Source of the DNA: Parabacteroides johnsonii DSM 18315
Lineage (GTDB): Bacteria > Bacteroidota > Bacteroidia > Bacteroidales > Tannerellaceae
DNA length: 64,000 nt
Reading direction: 5' to 3'
Assembly: GCF_025151045.1 (NCBI RefSeq)
Contig: NZ_CP102285.1
Location: forward strand, 3,348,001-3,412,000
Position 1 is the first letter of the stretch, and each line of letters begins with the position of its first letter. This document shows, piece by piece, positions 12,030 through 27,418 of the stretch. The position numbers and the translations under genes are program-made. The notes beneath the pieces were generated by a model. That model saw only the letters and a program-made list of their open reading frames with translations, ran no database searches and had not been told where the DNA came from.

Positions 12030-12050
12030 TTTTTAACTTTCAACTTTCAT
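12018..12050. repeat. GTTGAAA-type heptamer repeat between porV and ispF
   Basis: On the minus strand this stretch reads as variants of AGTTGAAA / AATTGAAAGTG. The same word is tandemly repeated at 41900-41935. It fills the whole gap between the porV stop and the ispF start. Confidence 0.6.
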
Positions 12051-13213
12051 CTGAACAAGTTCTTAATTCCATCCATATCAAAAGACAGGGAGAAACGAAG
12101 TGTCTGGTCCAACGGGTTCTGTGGAACCGTACTGATCAGATAAGCGGCATCCAGCTGGAACACGCTCATACGGAAACCGGCACCTACAGAAAAGTACTTA
12201 CGGTTACCGACATTCGCATTCTCGTAAAAATAACCGCCGCGAACAAAAAATTGTTCATTATAACTATACTCGGCTCCGACCGAAACCATGATCTCTTTCA
12301 GCAAGCCGTTAGGTGAATCGGTAAAAGACTTCAACATACCGGAAATACTCGACCACGACTTATAGTCATCCTCACGCGCTTGAAAGTCGGCATCAGTCTC
12401 TCCATCTTTCTTTTGCGGAGCATACGGAACCATGTATTTGTTCAGGTCCAAATAAACACCGATCTGGTTGTAGTCGTCGATCGGATAAAGCAGCCCTGTT
12501 CCCAAAGTCAACTTGGCCGGAAGGTACTGATTCCTATTTCCCCCGTCATACGAGATCTTACTCCCGATATTGGACAGGTTGAAACCAAAGCTCCACAATG
12601 CCTCGGCATTGCCCATCAGCACATACTTTTCCAGGTAACCGGAGATATCGGCTGCAAAAGCATTGCCCGCATTGCTCTCTTCATTCTGGTCTGTTCCCAT
12701 ATCCGAACGGATGTAACGCAAGGTTACCGCCATCGAATAGGACTCGGACAATTTACGGCTGTAAGCCACGTCGAACGCCATCTCATACGGGTTCAAACCA
12801 TAGGGAACATCCCCGATATTCTCCCATATATTTACTTCTCCTAATGAAAAATAACGCAAAGATGCGCTGATAGCCTGTAAATCACTATTTCCTAATTTGT
12901 AATAACCGGTCATGTTCACCAAAGCCACATCGTTGACCAATTTACGCAACCACGGAGTATAAGACAAACTGACTCCCGCCTTACTTCCCATAAAAGCATA
13001 TTTGGCCGCATTCCAATACTGCGAATTGATGTCCGGCAAAGTTGCCGCTCCCATGTCTCCCATACCGCCTCCTCGTGCATCCGGAGCGATGTTCAGCGAA
13101 GGAACCGCCATTTGGAGCAAAGAAGGGTTCTCCACTTGTCCCCAAGTCGTCGCAACCGAAGCGAAGAAGTTAAGTATTATAACGAGTACACCGATTCTGA
13201 ATTTACTTATCAT
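12047..13213 (-). CDS. porV: Type IX secretion outer-membrane shuttle protein PorV
   Basis: 388 residues with a signal peptide ending near ATTWGQ. The mature start is the PorV hallmark: LLQMAVPSLNIAPDARGGGMGDMGAA, followed by INSQYWNAAKYAF and SLSYTPWLR. The C-terminus (VPQNPLDQTLRFSLSF) fits a FadL-like 14-stranded barrel. PorV collects cargo from the Sov translocon, hands it to the PorU sortase and anchors the attachment complex. Its usual neighbour porU is 2.9 kb away here, separated by a three-gene cassette on the other strand. Confidence 0.92.
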   Translation of the reverse strand: MISKFRIGVLVIILNFFASVATTWGQVENPSLLQMAVPSLNIAPDARGGGMGDMGAATLPDINSQYWNAAKYAFMGSKAGVSLSYTPWLRKLVNDVALVNMTGYYKLGNSDLQAISASLRYFSLGEVNIWENIGDVPYGLNPYEMAFDVAYSRKLSESYSMAVTLRYIRSDMGTDQNEESNAGNAFAADISGYLEKYVLMGNAEALWSFGFNLSNIGSKISYDGGNRNQYLPAKLTLGTGLLYPIDDYNQIGVYLDLNKYMVPYAPQKKDGETDADFQAREDDYKSWSSISGMLKSFTDSPNGLLKEIMVSVGAEYSYNEQFFVRGGYFYENANVGNRKYFSVGAGFRMSVFQLDAAYLISTVPQNPLDQTLRFSLSFDMDGIKNLFR

Positions 13214-14853: not shown

Positions 14854-16134
14854 ATGATGCCATCCTGCCTGTCTATTCTGTTTCGCGCTCTCCGGATCGA
14901 GTGGAGAGAGACTAAGCGCACGTTATTTCCACCGACCCTGATAGAAACCGGACTTTTCCTTTTCTTCCTCATTCTTTACGGGTATATCGGGTACCGGATG
15001 CTCTTTCATACGGAACTGATAGATGTGCCCAACGGGGGAGCAGGAAGTTACTTGGGGTATGACAATCTATTCCATCTCCACACGCGCGGAGGAGCGTTTG
15101 ACATCAGCCATCCCTTCTTCGGTATTTTTCATTTGTTGAAAACCTTGTTGATAATCCTGTTGACAACCCTGTTCAAAGAGAAAACTTCCGGTATTATTTG
15201 CCTGATGCTGATGAACCTGTTGATAACCGGCGGACTGGTCCTGATTTATCGTTACCTGAAACAGATTGTCCAGATTTCTTCCAGGCGGGCATTATTGCTG
15301 ACAGGGTTCACGGGATGCTTCTTCACAACCGTTGTCCTATCATTCACCACAGAATCTTATCCGTTCTCCTTTTTCCTGCTCGTCTTCTCACTATTAATGC
15401 TTTCCAGGGAATACAAGCTGACCGGATATATAAAAGGACGGACTATTCTCTTCCTCTCTTTCCTCTGTGGAGGAATAACAATCACCAACGCTGCCAAACC
15501 GGCAATGGCCCTATTCCTGAATAAAGCACCGTTCTGGCGTAAAATACGGACGGGGATCAAAGTAATGTTGCCATTTGTCATTTGCGTAGCTGTCATCATG
15601 GGCTTTTATACCCTCAAAGCGAAATTGTTCAACCCGGAAGGTCCGTCTCCTATCGAAACGACCGGGCAACTCGGACAGTATTTTATCCATGACGAGACAT
15701 TCGGTAAACAAGCATTGGTCGATTTCTGGGGCAACACGATCATAAGCACGCCTCTCACACAACAGTTAGTCGGAAAAGAGGTCGTATTACGGCCCAGCGA
15801 ATACCTGCACAGTTGGAACAATGCCGTAATCATGTTTCTGTTGTTCTTAGTCACAGCCTCGGCTTTGCTCAACCTGAAAAACAAATATGTACAACTGTTG
15901 CTTATGTACCTGAGTATCGATTTCGTGATCCACTTTATCATCCGCTACGGGATGAACGAAGCGATCTTGTTCGGCGGACATTGGATGTTTGCAGTCCCGA
16001 TCCTGCTGGGCTGGCTATACACGCGATTGCCGGTCCGCATGTACCGGATACTGGACTGGATCATTATCGGTTTCTTTGTTCTGACTGCAACGATAAACAC
16101 GATGGAGTTCATGCGCTCCTTCCTATTCGCCTAA
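14854..16134 (+). CDS. Multi-pass membrane protein, DUF6080-like
   Basis: 426 residues with about ten hydrophobic segments and a first periplasmic loop (YRMLFHTELIDVPNGGAGSY through DISHPFFGIFH). This layout resembles GT-C glycosyltransferases that use polyprenyl-phosphate sugars, but the diagnostic acidic motif is not convincingly seen. I recall similar proteins as DUF6080. As the third gene of the cassette it could use or flip the lipid-linked pentose predicted for the first two. Its 3' end overlaps that of the convergent porU gene by 12 bp. Confidence 0.7.
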   Translation: MMPSCLSILFRALRIEWRETKRTLFPPTLIETGLFLFFLILYGYIGYRMLFHTELIDVPNGGAGSYLGYDNLFHLHTRGGAFDISHPFFGIFHLLKTLLIILLTTLFKEKTSGIICLMLMNLLITGGLVLIYRYLKQIVQISSRRALLLTGFTGCFFTTVVLSFTTESYPFSFFLLVFSLLMLSREYKLTGYIKGRTILFLSFLCGGITITNAAKPAMALFLNKAPFWRKIRTGIKVMLPFVICVAVIMGFYTLKAKLFNPEGPSPIETTGQLGQYFIHDETFGKQALVDFWGNTIISTPLTQQLVGKEVVLRPSEYLHSWNNAVIMFLLFLVTASALLNLKNKYVQLLLMYLSIDFVIHFIIRYGMNEAILFGGHWMFAVPILLGWLYTRLPVRMYRILDWIIIGFFVLTATINTMEFMRSFLFA

Positions 16135-19100
16135 AATGATGAACTTCCTTGCTTTTGTCGCGTCTTTGGAATTATCGGTGCTGATGGCTGCCCGGTAGAT
16201 ATAGACACCGGGGCGCATACGGGCGCCCCCACATGTCAGATCCCAGGAAACTGTATAGTTTTCGAACAGGCCAGACGTTCCGCTTTCTTCATGTTTCCAA
16301 AGCTGGCGTCCTGCCAGATCATAGACCATGATACCCACCCGCATACGGCTTTCGGGACGGTTGTGCATAAGATGGAAGGTCACCTGCTCGCGGGCGATAC
16401 CCGGCGTTGCGATCACATCGAACAGGAACGGTTTCAATCCCTCAACCACCTCGAAGGTGAATGTCCGCACGGTCGAGTTATTCTGGATATCCCATACCCA
16501 GAACTCCGCTGTATGTTTGCCCGGCTCAAGTGCCGGGATCGGAAACTTCACGATACCAGCCCCCTCTTCGCCCGGAAGCAGTTCGTAATAACTGTTCAGG
16601 TTATAACTCAGGACAGTCGATTCGTCTATTACCAGCATCATGTCATGCCCGACACTGCTTCCCGTGATATTCACTCCACTCTTATCCCATAATTCGGCAA
16701 CAAAATAGGGAGTCGTGTTCACCTGACCGCCATCTACAAATGTCGTATCATTCAGGTAAAGGGCACGGATTTCCGGACCGATCGTATCGGTTTCCGCCGT
16801 GTCGGAAGTTCCTCCGACAATAAAATTGTCGAAATTACCTTGTGCCTCATGACCATTTTCCGTATCAACGGCATACAGGTTCATTTTCCCTTGCAAATTG
16901 GAATAGGAAATATCCTTCGGAACCGTAAAAGTAAAGCTGAACTTTCCGTTGCGCACGGAGTCATTCCCTATAAAAATCGTATTCGGATAGTCGGTGAAGG
17001 TGAAAGCCGGAGTGTCATCTTTATTGCTGTTCTTCAAGCAAGTGACAGTCACCTTGCTATCTTTTACAGTCGGGTTTACTATACCAGTAAAATCAGTTAC
17101 CAACTGTCCGGAAGCATCCAACACCTCTCCTTCGACAGTAATCTTTTCCAAAGCTTTGAAAGAGATTGAATTTTCATCTACCGCTTGTCCATTTACGGTC
17201 GTCACTTTCATTCCAAATTCTGGATAAGCCATTTTTACAGCAGGGTCTCCGATCAAACAGAAACCAAGTTTGTAAACGGACGACAAAGTATTTTTCGTTG
17301 CTTGCATCACTTCTCCCAGCGTACGACGACGCCCATTATTTCTTTCAAACAAATTACGGATAACATTGTCGTTGATCGGGAAATTAGGTCTGGAATAAGC
17401 GACACGGACAGTCGTAAACAGCGCAATGCCTCCACTGCTTTTATTCAGAAAGACATCTTCTCCGGCAGACGTATTCAAGTCATCGAATCGCGTAAAATCG
17501 CAGGTAGCCGTCACCCATACCGGCAGATGAGTATAAGTAAACTGGTTGATATCTGTTTGTGTCAACACTTTCTCATCGCTTAAAGCCGTTGTCCCTCCAT
17601 GTCCGGTATAATTAAACAATAGAAGTCCGTCTTTTAGAAGTTTTTGCAAGCCACTCCTTACATCCGGATAAGTTCCTGCTGCCATGTCTTTTTTATAGGC
17701 ATCATAATACAGCTTATTCACCAAAAACTCAGGATGTTCACTTTCGACATAACCTGCCAGCTGATCAGCAAACTCCATATGCTCAGTCATAAATCCATCC
17801 GTATTGCTACCATCATCAGCCATAAAACACAGATTGTTTTTCCACGACCCTGTATTTTTATTTTCCATATAAGAGATTACCTTATCCACCATCTGAGTCG
17901 CCTGCTCCACAGTCCTGATAGGAAAACGTCCGATCCCCAGACATAGCTTTTTATTTTGAAGGGATTTCTTATTATCCGCATCATCCAGAAATCCGAAATA
18001 GTCATCAATCACATACGATTGACTACTTAATGAGTTTTCCGTCTGATACGTCAATAACATATTGCTCATATCCACCGATTTCCAGGCGGAAGTCAATTTA
18101 CGGTTGTCAAACGAGCCATCGCCGAACAGTAGTAAATATTTAGGAGCATCAGCTTCCGAAGTCTGCCGGTCGTAGAACATCTTCATAAAACGGCGATAAG
18201 CAGTTGCATCCGGTGTACCGCTGGAAAACTCGTTATAAATTGATTCTGGCGTCACCACTCGGACCGTCAGGTTATCCTTTGTCCGATGCGCTTCCGCCAA
18301 ACGTTCCGCTTGCGTGGTGAAATTAGGCTGGGCAATAATGATCATATCTTGCTGTGGCAAAGCATGCAGGTTCTGATTCGTTACCTCGCCGACCGTCACG
18401 GGAGCTTTGATCTGCGAAGGTTTTACAGCGACAAACTCCCTCAAGGAAGTGGAAGCAGGAATCGAAAAAGACAACTCTGTCCCGTTCAGAGACGTTTCCA
18501 TCTGTTGCGGATTTACACCGTCGGTCACATCAAAAACCAGCGTACCGGCATCGGCTCCCTGAATCACAAAACGGGAAGCATTGCCTCTTGCCGAGAGGCT
18601 GCGGAAGAATGTATAAGGATCATATACTTTCAATTGCCTCTTCATCTGAAGGCGGAAATAGTTCAAGTGTACATTCTTATGTCCGGTCGTGCTGTATCCT
18701 ATATTAACCTTCACAGTCTCACCTTTATCAGCAGTCCAAGCTCTTTCGCGATACAGTTCCCGTGCCACTTCGTATTCATCCGACGGAACAGACACAGAAC
18801 CGGAGATTACAGAATTTCCATCGACATTCATCGTGATCGTTCCGTTGCCCCGGGAGATAAAAGACAGGGTAGCTTTTCCCTCGTCATCCGTAATGCCCGG
18901 AACCGATATCGTGAAATCACGAGATAAAGTAGAAGTAAACGATTCTCCATACAGTTCACGCCCGGAACTGTTCACCGATACCAACTCTTCCTCGTGCAGG
19001 ACATAGTCATCGAAAGTCGTCACTTGCAGGGTGGCTCCATCGGCGGATACAGCCTTTTCCATCGTGCGTCCGGCCGTTTCTTTCTCGGTCACGAAATAAT

Positions 19101-19488
19101 ATCCGTAATTGGAATAGGGATTATTGGTGTGGATAAAAGACTTATCAGAAGAAGAATATTCCCATTTACGTGGTCCCTTCCCATAAAATAGCAGATAGTC
19201 CGCATTTCTCCACACGGCTACTTCTGGAACATCATCAATATAAGTAGTAGAGAAATCTTCATCCAAAGGCCAGCCTCCATAACCATAGACAGCGACTTTG
19301 TCCAGATTGGAAAAGCCCATCTTCTTCAGATCGGTAGCCGTCAGTTTGTAAATACCATCTTCCGCCACCTGTATCTTCACCCATTTCCCAGAGCTCAATA
19401 CCGACTCGGAGGCATATCGGCTACCATCCGCCCAAGCAGAAGCGAGCAGACCGAATACAAACAGCAAGGCACATAAGATTCTCTTCAT
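16123..19488 (-). CDS. porU: Type IX secretion C-terminal signal peptidase PorU
   Basis: 1121 residues with a signal peptide ending near SAWA. The N-terminal region (VLSSGKWVKIQVAEDGIYKLT, VAVYGYGG) is the PorU propeptide-like fold. A gingipain-type C25 peptidase domain follows, with the catalytic His630 in NYTGHGG and Cys663 in TATCDFTRF. The C-terminus is an Ig-like tail resembling a T9SS sorting domain (VMVYDLAGRQLW analogue, RPGVYIYRA, KFIIL). PorU cleaves sorting domains off cargo and links cargo to A-LPS on the cell surface. It follows a FAH-family gene by 16 bp and rex further up, so it is likely read from that transcript. Confidence 0.93.
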   Translation of the reverse strand: MKRILCALLFVFGLLASAWADGSRYASESVLSSGKWVKIQVAEDGIYKLTATDLKKMGFSNLDKVAVYGYGGWPLDEDFSTTYIDDVPEVAVWRNADYLLFYGKGPRKWEYSSSDKSFIHTNNPYSNYGYYFVTEKETAGRTMEKAVSADGATLQVTTFDDYVLHEEELVSVNSSGRELYGESFTSTLSRDFTISVPGITDDEGKATLSFISRGNGTITMNVDGNSVISGSVSVPSDEYEVARELYRERAWTADKGETVKVNIGYSTTGHKNVHLNYFRLQMKRQLKVYDPYTFFRSLSARGNASRFVIQGADAGTLVFDVTDGVNPQQMETSLNGTELSFSIPASTSLREFVAVKPSQIKAPVTVGEVTNQNLHALPQQDMIIIAQPNFTTQAERLAEAHRTKDNLTVRVVTPESIYNEFSSGTPDATAYRRFMKMFYDRQTSEADAPKYLLLFGDGSFDNRKLTSAWKSVDMSNMLLTYQTENSLSSQSYVIDDYFGFLDDADNKKSLQNKKLCLGIGRFPIRTVEQATQMVDKVISYMENKNTGSWKNNLCFMADDGSNTDGFMTEHMEFADQLAGYVESEHPEFLVNKLYYDAYKKDMAAGTYPDVRSGLQKLLKDGLLLFNYTGHGGTTALSDEKVLTQTDINQFTYTHLPVWVTATCDFTRFDDLNTSAGEDVFLNKSSGGIALFTTVRVAYSRPNFPINDNVIRNLFERNNGRRRTLGEVMQATKNTLSSVYKLGFCLIGDPAVKMAYPEFGMKVTTVNGQAVDENSISFKALEKITVEGEVLDASGQLVTDFTGIVNPTVKDSKVTVTCLKNSNKDDTPAFTFTDYPNTIFIGNDSVRNGKFSFTFTVPKDISYSNLQGKMNLYAVDTENGHEAQGNFDNFIVGGTSDTAETDTIGPEIRALYLNDTTFVDGGQVNTTPYFVAELWDKSGVNITGSSVGHDMMLVIDESTVLSYNLNSYYELLPGEEGAGIVKFPIPALEPGKHTAEFWVWDIQNNSTVRTFTFEVVEGLKPFLFDVIATPGIAREQVTFHLMHNRPESRMRVGIMVYDLAGRQLWKHEESGTSGLFENYTVSWDLTCGGARMRPGVYIYRAAISTDNSKDATKARKFIILGE

Positions 19489-24600: not shown

Positions 24601-25001
24601 GACATTTCTACATAAGAACTGTTTGATGTAGAGTAAGTTGTACCTTCCGAAAACAGTGTTGCTTTTTTCGGATCAACCTGTAAAGGTATACCTGTCGCCT
24701 TATTTACAAATGTAAAATCAGGGCTGGAAGCACTACCGTTAGGATAAGAATACTGAATCTCCCATAAAGTAGAGTTCAGGTCTGTGACAGAAGTTGCTGT
24801 TTTTAATTTCAGAGTGTAACCCTCTCCTTGAGGAACCATAACGAGGATTTTACTACCATCTGCATTACTTAATTGATAAGCTTTTTCGGTTTCGATCTTC
24901 GTCACTGTTCTGCTCGCATTTGTGATATTTGCAGCAAAAGCAGATGAGAACGCAGCCGAAGCCATACAAGCCACTACAAGAGTAGAAAACTTTTTGTTCA
25001 T
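21636..25001 (-). CDS. Large secreted surface protein with DUF6383/T9SS-like tail
   Basis: 1121 residues. A signal peptide (MNKKFSTLVVACMASAAFSSAFA) is followed by a long beta-rich body with repeated themes of the form 'NGVYVIKNTKGQYLAVPI', seen also as IETEKAYQLSNADGSK and NGNRYIAIDSENRYRM, as in ricin-like or S-layer proteins. The C-terminal 70 residues (VTVIAQQGAVRVANAAGKK, VTNILGQTVANT, QGVVVVAVEGEEAVKAIVK) resemble a type A T9SS sorting domain and the DUF6383 tail. It is probably exported to the surface by the T9SS. In Parabacteroides distasonis a family of S-layer glycoproteins is known to be switched by promoter inversion. An inverted-repeat-bounded promoter lies 76-300 bp upstream here, facing away. 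Confidence 0.8.
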   Translation of the reverse strand: MNKKFSTLVVACMASAAFSSAFAANITNASRTVTKIETEKAYQLSNADGSKILVMVPQGEGYTLKLKTATSVTDLNSTLWEIQYSYPNGSASSPDFTFVNKATGIPLQVDPKKATLFSEGTTYSTSNSSYVEMSGSVSTWKWKDFVETQGSPFGTSGLVSHFAKDSIVALVTGATPAATTNNYANSEDVYLVKAHANRSTWNGIHLRVAPAYAGGVTLSAKDLNTKLGTDPEGKSFKLSSTPELKVGTNGNSTLGNIFTDNTLRAWEPAAATDEANSKIYVEQSNFNNGTANTFTGMFLQVIDNDAKKDDPFNDVYLMADTAYINGMYLNNQNCIKFTKDSIKSAEWQGNNYLNKVKPGRNNHAALFTFEYFASQDSIAIKVFEYNTKQTTAVTKDGKVTFWGGTPVTNANTVVLNKLTSISEITLGDADMSTPKPANIRFTLGEGTTNRKSINNGVYVIKNTKGQYLAVPIYNTKKATSWNAAEWVTIETDAQDALRMPAYQWVAVQRDTLSSGLKEISRMALTNREFENVAKDIQLRKDAGATYFFANEIAGGKDSLIIEAVAPTIIADKELGYLNLDDAELDVMTYNFNYLHAYADDKFIGMMEDSVLNVKDGKYAFYMDEESTEANYGFTTPYVAGLKQLTRVIYTPYVKTVNGNRYIAIDSENRYRMTYNKAEAQKFYLKENNFYKPASKEAAQPYYAFINVTETTDSTKMGSADQDLSVILRNQVLEETRTSAFAVVPNDAPLYRRFNTELEGAVEGQEDATKILKFKEFYRGEYLMDENNKKFQDEVVNYAGIERADKATGLSFYVDTVVVKGTAGHEQKPQYFIYVDRVVVDPVPGKECQEGDNHVDANGDPTDAAHCVHATPSKAGFTVAKYMVSFADSLSAKNADELYKFGEYTRVGFVKGLHIGDSLYILTNGFENMEASKLDTAAIRANYKATNNEFNIIDLKAKHTDAHHNYTWSFRYTNPEAAAAVDEDARRFLIESNRGDADIAPSKAAWLKSQNGCLVLSDAATSKFENAKTGGDNALIFNIEVGSENDLATDNEEIATSEVTVIAQQGAVRVANAAGKKVVVTNILGQTVANTVITSSDVTIAAPQGVVVVAVEGEEAVKAIVK

Positions 25002-25076: not shown

Positions 25077-25117
25077 AAAATGACTAATGAAAACGTACGT
25101 TTTTTTTAGTCATTTTT
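25077..25117. repeat. Left 41-bp inverted repeat of invertible promoter segment
   Basis: Exact reverse complement of 25260-25300. The repeat is itself roughly palindromic, with AAAATGACTA and TAGTCATTTT at its ends and the core AAAACGTACGTTTT at its centre. The core resembles the AACGT(A/T)CGT words found in the recombination sites of Bacteroides invertible promoters. It ends 75 bp before the ATG of the 1121-aa protein gene. Confidence 0.9.
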
Positions 25118-25223
25118 GGGGAGGGTTTAAATGGTTTGTGATAAAAAGGTGGTTTTTCGTACTTACTAAGCTATCTGATTGATAAGAAAGAATATAGAAA
25201 AAGAAAAATCTTTGAGGAAAGAA

Positions 25224-25253
25224 TTGCAGGTTCAAAAAGTATATGTATTTTTG
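25224..25253 (+). promoter_or_regulatory. Promoter inside the invertible segment, currently facing away from the gene
   Basis: TTG (25224-25226) and TATTTTTG (25246-25253) are 19 bp apart, a textbook Bacteroidetes promoter, reading rightwards. No comparable box is found on the minus strand within the segment or in the 75 bp before the surface-protein gene. Inverting the segment would place the -7 box at 25131 to 25124 on the minus strand and start a transcript near 25116, about 115 bases before the ATG. The current state is therefore predicted OFF. Confidence 0.75.
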
Positions 25254-25259
25254 TAGCTG

Positions 25260-25300
25260 AAAAATGACTAAAAAAAACGTACGTTTTCATTAGTCATTTT
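25260..25300. repeat. Right 41-bp inverted repeat of invertible promoter segment
   Basis: Perfect inverted copy of 25077-25117. Together they bound a 142-bp segment holding one good promoter. No recombinase gene of the invertase type is present in this window, so inversion would depend on an enzyme encoded elsewhere. Confidence 0.9.
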
Positions 25301-25301
25301 T

Positions 25302-25836
25302 CATACCCCGAATATAATTCTATAAATCAACATTTTACATTCGATTTTATACTTATTTTGCCCCTAAAAAAGCCACTTTACGCGTACATTATATAAATCA
25401 GCACATTACTATCAATCAATCTATTACGAAAATCGCAAAAGTACCAAAATACGCCTTTTTGCAGAAAACCGCCCAAAACAGCCCTTTTTACCCCCTTTCC
25501 AAGACAGCTATTTCCCTCAAAGCACAGGTCGTCATTGTTTCAGTCTTCTACTTTTTGGTATCAATGACCAAAATCGAAAAGCCTGTAGCCGAAACTTAGG
25601 TTTCACTAGTTCCAAGGCGCGAAACAAAAGTTTCATCCGGGGAAACTTTTGTTCCATCAGCATGAAACTAAAGTTTCAAGGGGAGGGACTATCTGAAACT
25701 TTAGTTTCAAACATAATTCAGATTTGAAACTTCTGGAAATTCACTTACAAACCATTGCTGATTCCAAGCAGATACGACCCATCTACATATCGCTTGTTCT
25801 ATCATAAATCTCATACTCTTTATCTTTTTGTAAGGG
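25302..25836. other. 535-bp AT-rich intergenic region with GAAACTTTTGTTTCAT-type repeats (copy 2)
   Basis: No gene is seen. From about 25600 to 25735 the sequence is built from inverted and direct variants of GAAACTTTTGTTTCAT and GAAACTTTAGTTTCAA, like 11400-11505. Around 25530-25559 is a GTCATTGTTTC..CTTC..CTTTTTGGT word that recurs, inverted, near 63925-63957. The rest holds nothing I can name. Confidence 0.5.
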
Positions 25837-25837
25837 G

Positions 25838-25968
25838 TGTGTCAAAATCCCCTTGTCCCCGCGCTTGACGCGGGGCCGCAAAAGAGCAAGCCTTATCAAT
25901 CAGATGTTTATATGACTGGCTTTAATGCGATCCCGCGTCAAGCGCGGGAACAGGATAGTTTTGACACA
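25838..25968. mobile_element. Palindromic MITE-like element, TGTCAAAA family (copy 2)
   Basis: Arms at 25838-25874 and 25932-25968 match over 37 bp with a few mismatches; ends are TGTGTCAAAA and TTTTGACACA, and the inner part is GC-rich (CGCGCTTGACGCGGG). The 57-bp centre is unrelated to the arms. It encodes nothing, so a non-autonomous element or a repeat moved in trans is likely. No clear target duplication is visible. It lies directly upstream of the IS110 element. Confidence 0.65.
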
Positions 25969-26019
25969 TTTACATTTGCAGTATTAAATATCACAATAAA
26001 ATATAAGTGTATATTTGAA

Positions 26020-26162
26020 AAGAAGAGTTGCAGTGAACTAACTTTGACACTAGTCTTAAATGACTATGAGCTGAATCAGACTGCAACTCTCTTAATAGGA
26101 GAACCTAGCCAGTTAGAATTGTAGGCTCACGACCTAATAAATGTATTAGCTGTTTCTCCTTC
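26020..26162 (+). ncRNA. Candidate IS110 bridge RNA region
   Basis: The non-coding stretch before the transposase folds into successive stem-loops. AGAGTTGCAGT (26024-26034) pairs perfectly with 26080-26090, enclosing an inner TAGTC/GACTA stem. AGGAGAA (26097-26103) pairs with TTCTCCT (26154-26160), enclosing a CTAAT/ATTAG stem. IS110-group elements encode a bridge RNA in the left non-coding end, whose loops specify target and donor DNA. The position and structure fit, but loop-to-DNA matches cannot be confirmed without the element's ends. Confidence 0.45.
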
Positions 26163-26189
26163 ATGTTTAATACTGTAAAATACAAAATT

Positions 26190-27185
26190 ATGAATTATTC
26201 TCATTTTGTAGGTCTTGATGTAGGAAAAAAAACTTTCGATGCATCATTAATGTCTGCGGCCGAAAAAGAGTTGTCTCACAAGTCTTTTGATAACACTCCA
26301 GAAGGGATCCAATCTTTATTGGATTGGATAGCAGGTTATCATCTCTCTTTATCTAAACTCTTGTTCTGTGCTGAAAACATGGGAAGCTATGTCACAGAGT
26401 TATCTGTTTCCAGTGTCTCCATGGGATTTCCCCTGGCTTTGGTTTGCCCGTTGACCATCAAGAAGTCCATAGACTTGCAACGAGGCAAAAATGACCGCAT
26501 TGACGCCAAAAGGATAGCGAACTATGCGGTATTACATTATCGAAAACTAGAGTTATACAAATTACCTAACAAAGACTTGGTGAGACTGCGGGGATGGATT
26601 ATTATACGTGACAATTTGGTTAAGCAAAAAGTATCAAACATAAAGTTATTGGAAACATTCTCCCAGATGGCTAAGTTGGCTGATGTGGCAGAATCCATTT
26701 CTTTTTTGGAAGAGCAGCTCAAGTCGATAAAAGAAAAGATCCTGGAAGTGGAAGAGGATATGGAGCAACTAATAGCCGCCAGTACATCGCTTTACACAAA
26801 TTACTTGCTATTAAGAAGTATAAAAGGAATAGGAATTATCAATGCCATTGTATTACTGTGTGTTACTGACAATTTTCAAAGATTTGACAACCCGAGGAAA
26901 TTTGCCTGCTATTGTGGGGTTGCCCCATTTGAACATACTTCAGGTATTTCCATACGGGGAAAAACGCAGACTTCTTCATTGGCTAACAAAGAAGTAAAAG
27001 TATACCTTACCCGAGCAGCTATTACTGCCACATCTTGGGATCCGCAGATGGAAGCATATTATAAAAGGAAAATAGCGGAGGGGAAACATAAAGCATCTGT
27101 AATCAATGCTGTAAGAGCCAAAATCATAGCAAGATCTTTTGCTGTGATACGAAGGCAGACTCCATTTGTAACATTAGCCGTATAA
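26190..27185 (+). mobile_element. IS110-family transposase gene
   Basis: 331 residues from the ATG at 26190; a start at 26163 would overlap the structured upstream RNA region. The DEDD RuvC-like domain is intact: FVGLDVGKKTFDASL, FCAENMGSYVTEL and KNDRIDAKRIANYA. A coiled-coil (FLEEQLKSIKEKILEVEEDMEQLI) leads to the Tnp_20 domain with SIKGIGIINAIVLL, FACYCGVAPFEHTSGIS and the active-site serine region, then KHKASVINAVRAKIIAR. The enzyme moves its element with an RNA guide, leaving no long terminal repeats. The frame is complete, so the copy may be active. The element's outer limits are not resolved. Confidence 0.9.
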
Positions 27186-27418
27186 TAAAAAGATCCTTAA
27201 CTTTGAAAACATCTTAGGTTTAGGAAGTAGCTATACACTTCTGAAGAGTTATTATGTCTATATACGAACTTACCCAAGGATACGTTAATGTTCGTAAACT
27301 TGGGTAAGATTTGAGAGATATTGTTTGGAGAGGACTTAGAATTCACCTCCTTACAAAGACAAACAAAAAAAATCAGGGTATACAGATACCTCTTCCAAAA
27401 ACATAAAGAAGTTATAAC
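27186..27418. other. Right non-coding flank of the IS110 element
   Basis: No gene. CTTACCCAAG (27269-27278) and its perfect complement at 27299-27308 can pair, while CGAAC (27265-27269) can instead pair with GTTCG (27290-27294); the two stems exclude each other. This could be part of the element's right end or a downstream structured RNA. Confidence 0.45.

Follow-up and report, generated by a model that had tools for sequence, protein, structure and literature searches.

A phase-variable family of S-layer glycoproteins is described for Parabacteroides distasonis in two publications (PMC8400631, citing Fletcher et al. 2007, and PMC8068183), and the P. distasonis S-layer switching that the initial annotation invoked as a precedent is a published one. 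In Bacteroides fragilis, the capsule promoters are under the control of one global serine invertase, Mpi, and 7 of the 8 capsule loci are invertible (PMC4747536, PMC12632263). In B. thetaiotaomicron, most cells have the promoter of the phase-variable S-layer lipoprotein BT1927 in the OFF state (PMC12118408, PMC12578637).

The locus described here lies in a 64-kb stretch of DNA (the window) from a one-contig genome of 4.75 Mb (G000). It shares with the P. distasonis family, in the same genus, invertible promoters that precede genes for large surface proteins, and as promoter inversion of S-layer genes is published for P. distasonis, the mechanism belongs to a known type. The layout in G000 is also that of genome G004, which we take to be P. 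distasonis ATCC 8503, where a repeat pair was detected at six of the seven OFF genes and one further gene is fixed ON. The two systems differ in the outer arms of the repeats (ATGACTAA at the window system, CGACTAG in P. distasonis) and in the central dinucleotide, mostly TA here and mostly AT in P. distasonis. As the PorU encoded in the window was 93% identical to that of P. massiliensis and 55-61% identical to records named P. distasonis, the window species is, judged by this protein, not P. distasonis but near P. massiliensis.

The B. fragilis system, in which one invertase serves many distant promoters, is much like the present one in its proportion of invertible loci (7/8, and 8/9 here), whereas Mpi acts on capsule operons there and the targets here are mostly genes for single surface proteins. 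BT1927 resembles the window gene as a surface-layer protein behind an invertible promoter; unlike the window system, it is a lipoprotein with a barrel partner, and its repeat, CCGTTACCTABVRAGTAAC, lies near a site-specific integrase. The window protein carries a sorting domain of the type IX secretion system (T9SS) by predicted fold, and none is described for BT1927 (PMC12118408, PMC12578637). We read the window locus as an invertible promoter switch (phase variation), flipped probably by an invertase of the Mpi family and driving a T9SS-exported coat protein, with a probability of about 0.9.

Repeats and promoter at the window locus

Perfect 41-bp inverted repeats 142 bp apart had been claimed for this locus, and direct recomputation returned exactly these coordinates, with arms that are exact reverse complements and a match that ends on both sides (Table 1). 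About 1e-14 perfect repeats like this pair are expected per 64 kb at the local base composition, with gaps of up to 400 bp. Each arm is itself palindromic at 36 of 40 positions around the centre AAAACGTACGTTTT. The distance of 75 bp given between the repeat and the start of the 1121-aa ORF was also correct (ATG at 25001, repeat from 25077).

Table 1. Features of the switch, the gene behind it and neighbouring secretion genes (window coordinates)
Feature	Position	Strand	Remarks
PorV, type IX secretion outer-membrane protein	12047-13213	-	NF033710, 488.4 bits; neighbour outside the switch
PorU, type IX secretion sortase	16123-19488	-	NF033707, 1163.5 bits; Peptidase_C25; neighbour outside the switch
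Secreted surface-layer-type protein, 1121 aa	21636-25001	-	C-terminal DUF6383, T9SS sorting domain by predicted fold
Gene-proximal inverted repeat, putative invertase site	25077-25117	.	41 bp, near-palindromic; exact reverse complement of 25260-25300
Core of gene-proximal site	25090-25103		Central dinucleotide TA at 25096-25097; core kept at sister loci
Putative invertible spacer	25118-25259	.	142 bp; counterpart at a sister locus inverted between two species
Bacteroidales-type promoter, TTG-N19-TATTTTTG	25224-25253	+	Points away from the gene (OFF); similar element at eight other family loci
Gene-distal inverted repeat, putative invertase site	25260-25300	.	Core 25274-25287; central dinucleotide TA at 25280-25281

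The segment between the repeats, upstream of the gene, contains a promoter of the Bacteroidales type, for which the -7 consensus is TAnnTTTG (PMC4747536). As the gene is on the minus strand with its ATG at 25001, this plus-strand promoter points away from it, in agreement with the single outward-directed promoter of the initial annotation, and in the 450 bp preceding the ATG no other match to the promoter pattern was directed at the gene. After inversion in silico at the core centres, the promoter faced the gene and occupied -152 to -122 relative to the ATG, so that a flip would aim it as had been proposed. The same OFF orientation was found in G000 and at the corresponding locus of the closest relative (G015:3003500), with no other state seen in the two.

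It is very improbable that the outward promoter serves a rightward transcript and that the repeats are a terminator or a protein-binding palindrome and not recombination sites. The near-palindromic arms could each form a hairpin, and an IS110-family transposase ORF on the plus strand begins ~860 bp to the right; however, G015 has kept the switch but has no transposase insertion in this slot, the promoter of a sister locus is inverted together with its whole segment (see below), and in eight genomes a repeat-less locus has a promoter of this type directed at its gene.

To the right of the switch, a stretch of ~2 kb (25310-27300) with the IS110-family transposase gene (26163-27185, plus strand) separates it from the conserved flank. 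The matching slot of G015 lacks the whole stretch, and the OFF-state promoter is aimed at the transposase gene. Two intergenic 16-bp palindromes, TGAAACTAAAGTTTCA and TGAAACTTTAGTTTCA, are located at 25663-25709.

The gene family and its orientations across the genus

A first scan of a collection of genome contigs with the window protein as query found no relative. The DUF6383 family in G000 comprised 14 matches, among which nine genes share a common upstream module, forming a family of large exported surface proteins of which eight are placed behind invertible promoters. These eight carry paired repeats and an outward promoter (all OFF), and the search for further copies of the repeat beside similar genes thus ended in eight repeat-flanked loci at DUF6383 surface-protein genes. 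At the ninth gene (start 3325498), a promoter of this kind is directed at the gene from -137 and repeats are absent, so that this gene should be permanently ON. The exact core occurred in eight site pairs in G000, six in the DUF6383 family and one each at genes for a PAS histidine kinase and for polysaccharide biosynthesis, and a reversed-pattern control gave none; the remaining two family switches carry variant cores.

The Mpi-type pair at the PAS histidine kinase gene (G000:1116066-1116242, within 1112000-1122000) lies upstream of that gene, with centres TT/AA and promoter-like elements. The other (G000:1334532-1334716, within 1330000-1340000; centres TA) lies upstream of a Polysacc_synt_2 gene of capsule type, as do Mpi-type sites at the capsule promoters of B. 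fragilis, and its promoter-like element is directed away from the gene. A short ORF at G000:4180560 (~300-330 aa) with a terminal DUF6383 is perhaps a truncated family member or a cassette remnant. The 14-base core was also found in at least 120 stretches of viral contigs; these were set aside, as chance matches are expected for so short a palindrome.

Comparison of a sister locus, G000:3205542 (OFF), with its ortholog G015:2845302 (ON) revealed colinear flanks of 97.6% and 79% identity around a middle segment of ~205 bp that is inverted, with 86.5% identity on the minus strand; the wider flanks are syntenic at 92-93%. Because the segment is inverted between colinear flanks in a close relative, the module does flip. 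This inversion was observed between species at the sister locus, and the window locus would be expected to invert in the same way. The reading as an invertible promoter therefore gains support from eight loci of the same layout and from a sister locus in both orientations in two species.

Across the sampled assemblies of the genus, 65 of 68 repeat-flanked loci were OFF and 3 ON, and at one further ON locus, G014:1881349, the second site was not recognised. Assemblies record the majority state, so that these counts can only suggest a low ON frequency. The repeat-less inward promoter was present once in each of eight genomes (G000, G001, G002, G004, G014, G015, G021 and G026), and in G000, G015 and G014 this locus has the same two neighbours, lolC-like and rsmH. 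At a locus of one relative (G001:C80:26478-27108), the promoter in its OFF state is directed at a divergent gene of 810 aa, and OFF might there mean ON for the neighbour.

The prevalence of OFF states, including those of the window locus in G000 and G015, would also be seen if the window locus were a locked relic, in which the repeats remain without flipping and the gene is silent. We regard this as improbable. The two arms agree at all 41 bp and no sister locus has a longer perfect pair; the gene behind them is intact, and its switch shares 95% identity with that of G015. Flipping also occurs at loci built in this way, and a scarcity of ON states is compatible with a low ON frequency.

Site centres and the candidate invertase

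Tyrosine recombinases have a spacer of 6-8 bp; for serine recombinases, which cut with an overlap of 2 bp, the centres of the two sites have to match. In a first pass over 52 site pairs, two central columns matched in all within-locus pairs and in ~55% of comparisons between loci, and the remaining columns that always matched showed hardly any variation anywhere. When 68 pairs from 14 genomes, selected without using the centre, were compared, the central dinucleotides of the two sites agreed in inverted orientation in every pair (68/68), versus a mean of 39.7 and a maximum of 54 agreeing pairs in 50,000 within-genome shuffles, and the dinucleotides differed between loci (TA, AT, TT/AA, GT/AC, TC/GA). 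A serine recombinase whose overlap is 2 bp would be expected to give such matching, and palindromic sites with a matched 2-bp centre agree with an Mpi system. A candidate enzyme is encoded at G000:2303155-2303775; its product scored 317 bits (cut-off 272) with NF009949 ('master DNA invertase Mpi'), and its orthologs in G015, G014 and G001, three close relatives with the module, are 97-99% identical. The resemblance of the core to Bacteroides promoter-switch sites, proposed in the initial annotation, thus fits a site of a serine (Mpi-type) invertase, and a gene of that family is present. Co-occurrence of Mpi and the switches across the genus was rejected as evidence, being too confounded by relatedness.

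Inversion of the switch could instead be due to an enzyme different from the Mpi homolog, either another resolvase-family protein or a tyrosine invertase, which we consider unlikely, though less so than a locked locus. A survey of G000 for the resolvase family (PF00239) found five genes, that is, four besides the Mpi homolog; no recombinase gene adjoins the window switch, and genes for tyrosine-type recombinases are located at most P. distasonis capsule loci (PMC8400631). Against these points, the exact match of the two central base pairs between the arms is a requirement of the serine type, the Mpi of B. fragilis acts at many distant promoters (PMC4747536), and the Mpi homolog is highly conserved in the three relatives that have the module. 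With the Mpi homolog as the probable agent, a serine invertase acting in trans would recombine the palindromic-core sites at the central dinucleotide that they have in common, which would flip the segment. The only promoter, which in the OFF orientation would fire away from the gene, would then be positioned 122-152 bp before the ATG and drive transcription of the gene for the 1121-aa surface protein.

Predicted export of the surface protein and possible exchange of coding regions

The 1121-aa protein has a signal-like N-terminus and a C-terminal DUF6383, described as a putative T9SS targeting domain (PMC9722745). TIGR04183 did not match the protein by sequence. Modelled alone, DUF6383 was predicted to form a seven-stranded sandwich (pLDDT 93), and the six best Foldseek matches to this model were all T9SS C-terminal domains (8gl8, 8glk, 5ag8, 7pq4, 8gl6 and 5hfs), with weak to modest E-values (4e-3 to 3e-2) and a consistent ranking; the two best Z scores were 9.0 to 5ag8 and 8.3 to 8gl6. 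The predicted fold supports the assignment of DUF6383 as a T9SS C-terminal sorting domain. Genes for T9SS machinery, PorU and PorV, are located within the window, and PorU is the probable export machinery for the surface protein. The T9SS-type character claimed for the protein is hence backed by the fold of the C-terminal domain and by these genes nearby.

The AlphaFold model of the whole protein was poor (pLDDT 40.7) and not usable, and a profile of full-length family proteins matched no solved structure, leaving the body of the protein without a solved relative by sequence. D(S/T)(A/L/V/I/M/T) O-glycosylation motifs numbered 12 in the protein and 4.2 in shuffles. By analogy with the published P. 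distasonis family, from which the S-layer identity is drawn, the protein, after export by type IX secretion, would probably be glycosylated into an S-layer-like coat. As the ninth family gene has a fixed inward promoter without repeats, eight switches together with this fixed-ON gene would mean that one coat protein is always made and another is occasionally added.

The coding regions vary between the same slots of G000 and G015. In most slots the flanks are ~90-97% identical and the same-slot proteins 36-97%; in the window slot, identity is 94-97% over the switch and the start of the gene, drops to mostly 35-62% in the coding body and is again 88-97% at the 3' end. At the fixed-ON slot the proteins are only 41.5% identical, and the G015 fixed-ON protein matches the product of a switchable gene, G000:3222374, at 81%, with similarity confined to the coding region. 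The fixed slot of G014, taken as P. massiliensis, encodes the same protein type as that of G015 (86% identical). The simplest reading of these alignments would be an exchange of coding cassettes between slots, to which differential loss of paralogs is an alternative. A variation system of two layers, with one fixed-ON slot, eight flip-switch slots and cassettes that recombine via conserved 5' and 3' ends, is a tentative proposal that we hold to be possible, with the odds against it; if it is true, a silent coat gene could become constitutive, or the reverse, with the promoters unchanged.

To the finding of the initial annotation, the present analysis adds the matching of centres throughout the genus, the slot that is fixed ON and the pattern of cassettes. 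The switch extends the known mechanism of P. distasonis to other Parabacteroides, where site, enzyme and family can be tested together, and the matched centres point, from sequence alone, to a serine enzyme and to the place of the crossover. A fixed-ON slot, many OFF switches and replaced coding regions suggest a continuous coat with a changing identity, which bears on phage escape and immune escape.
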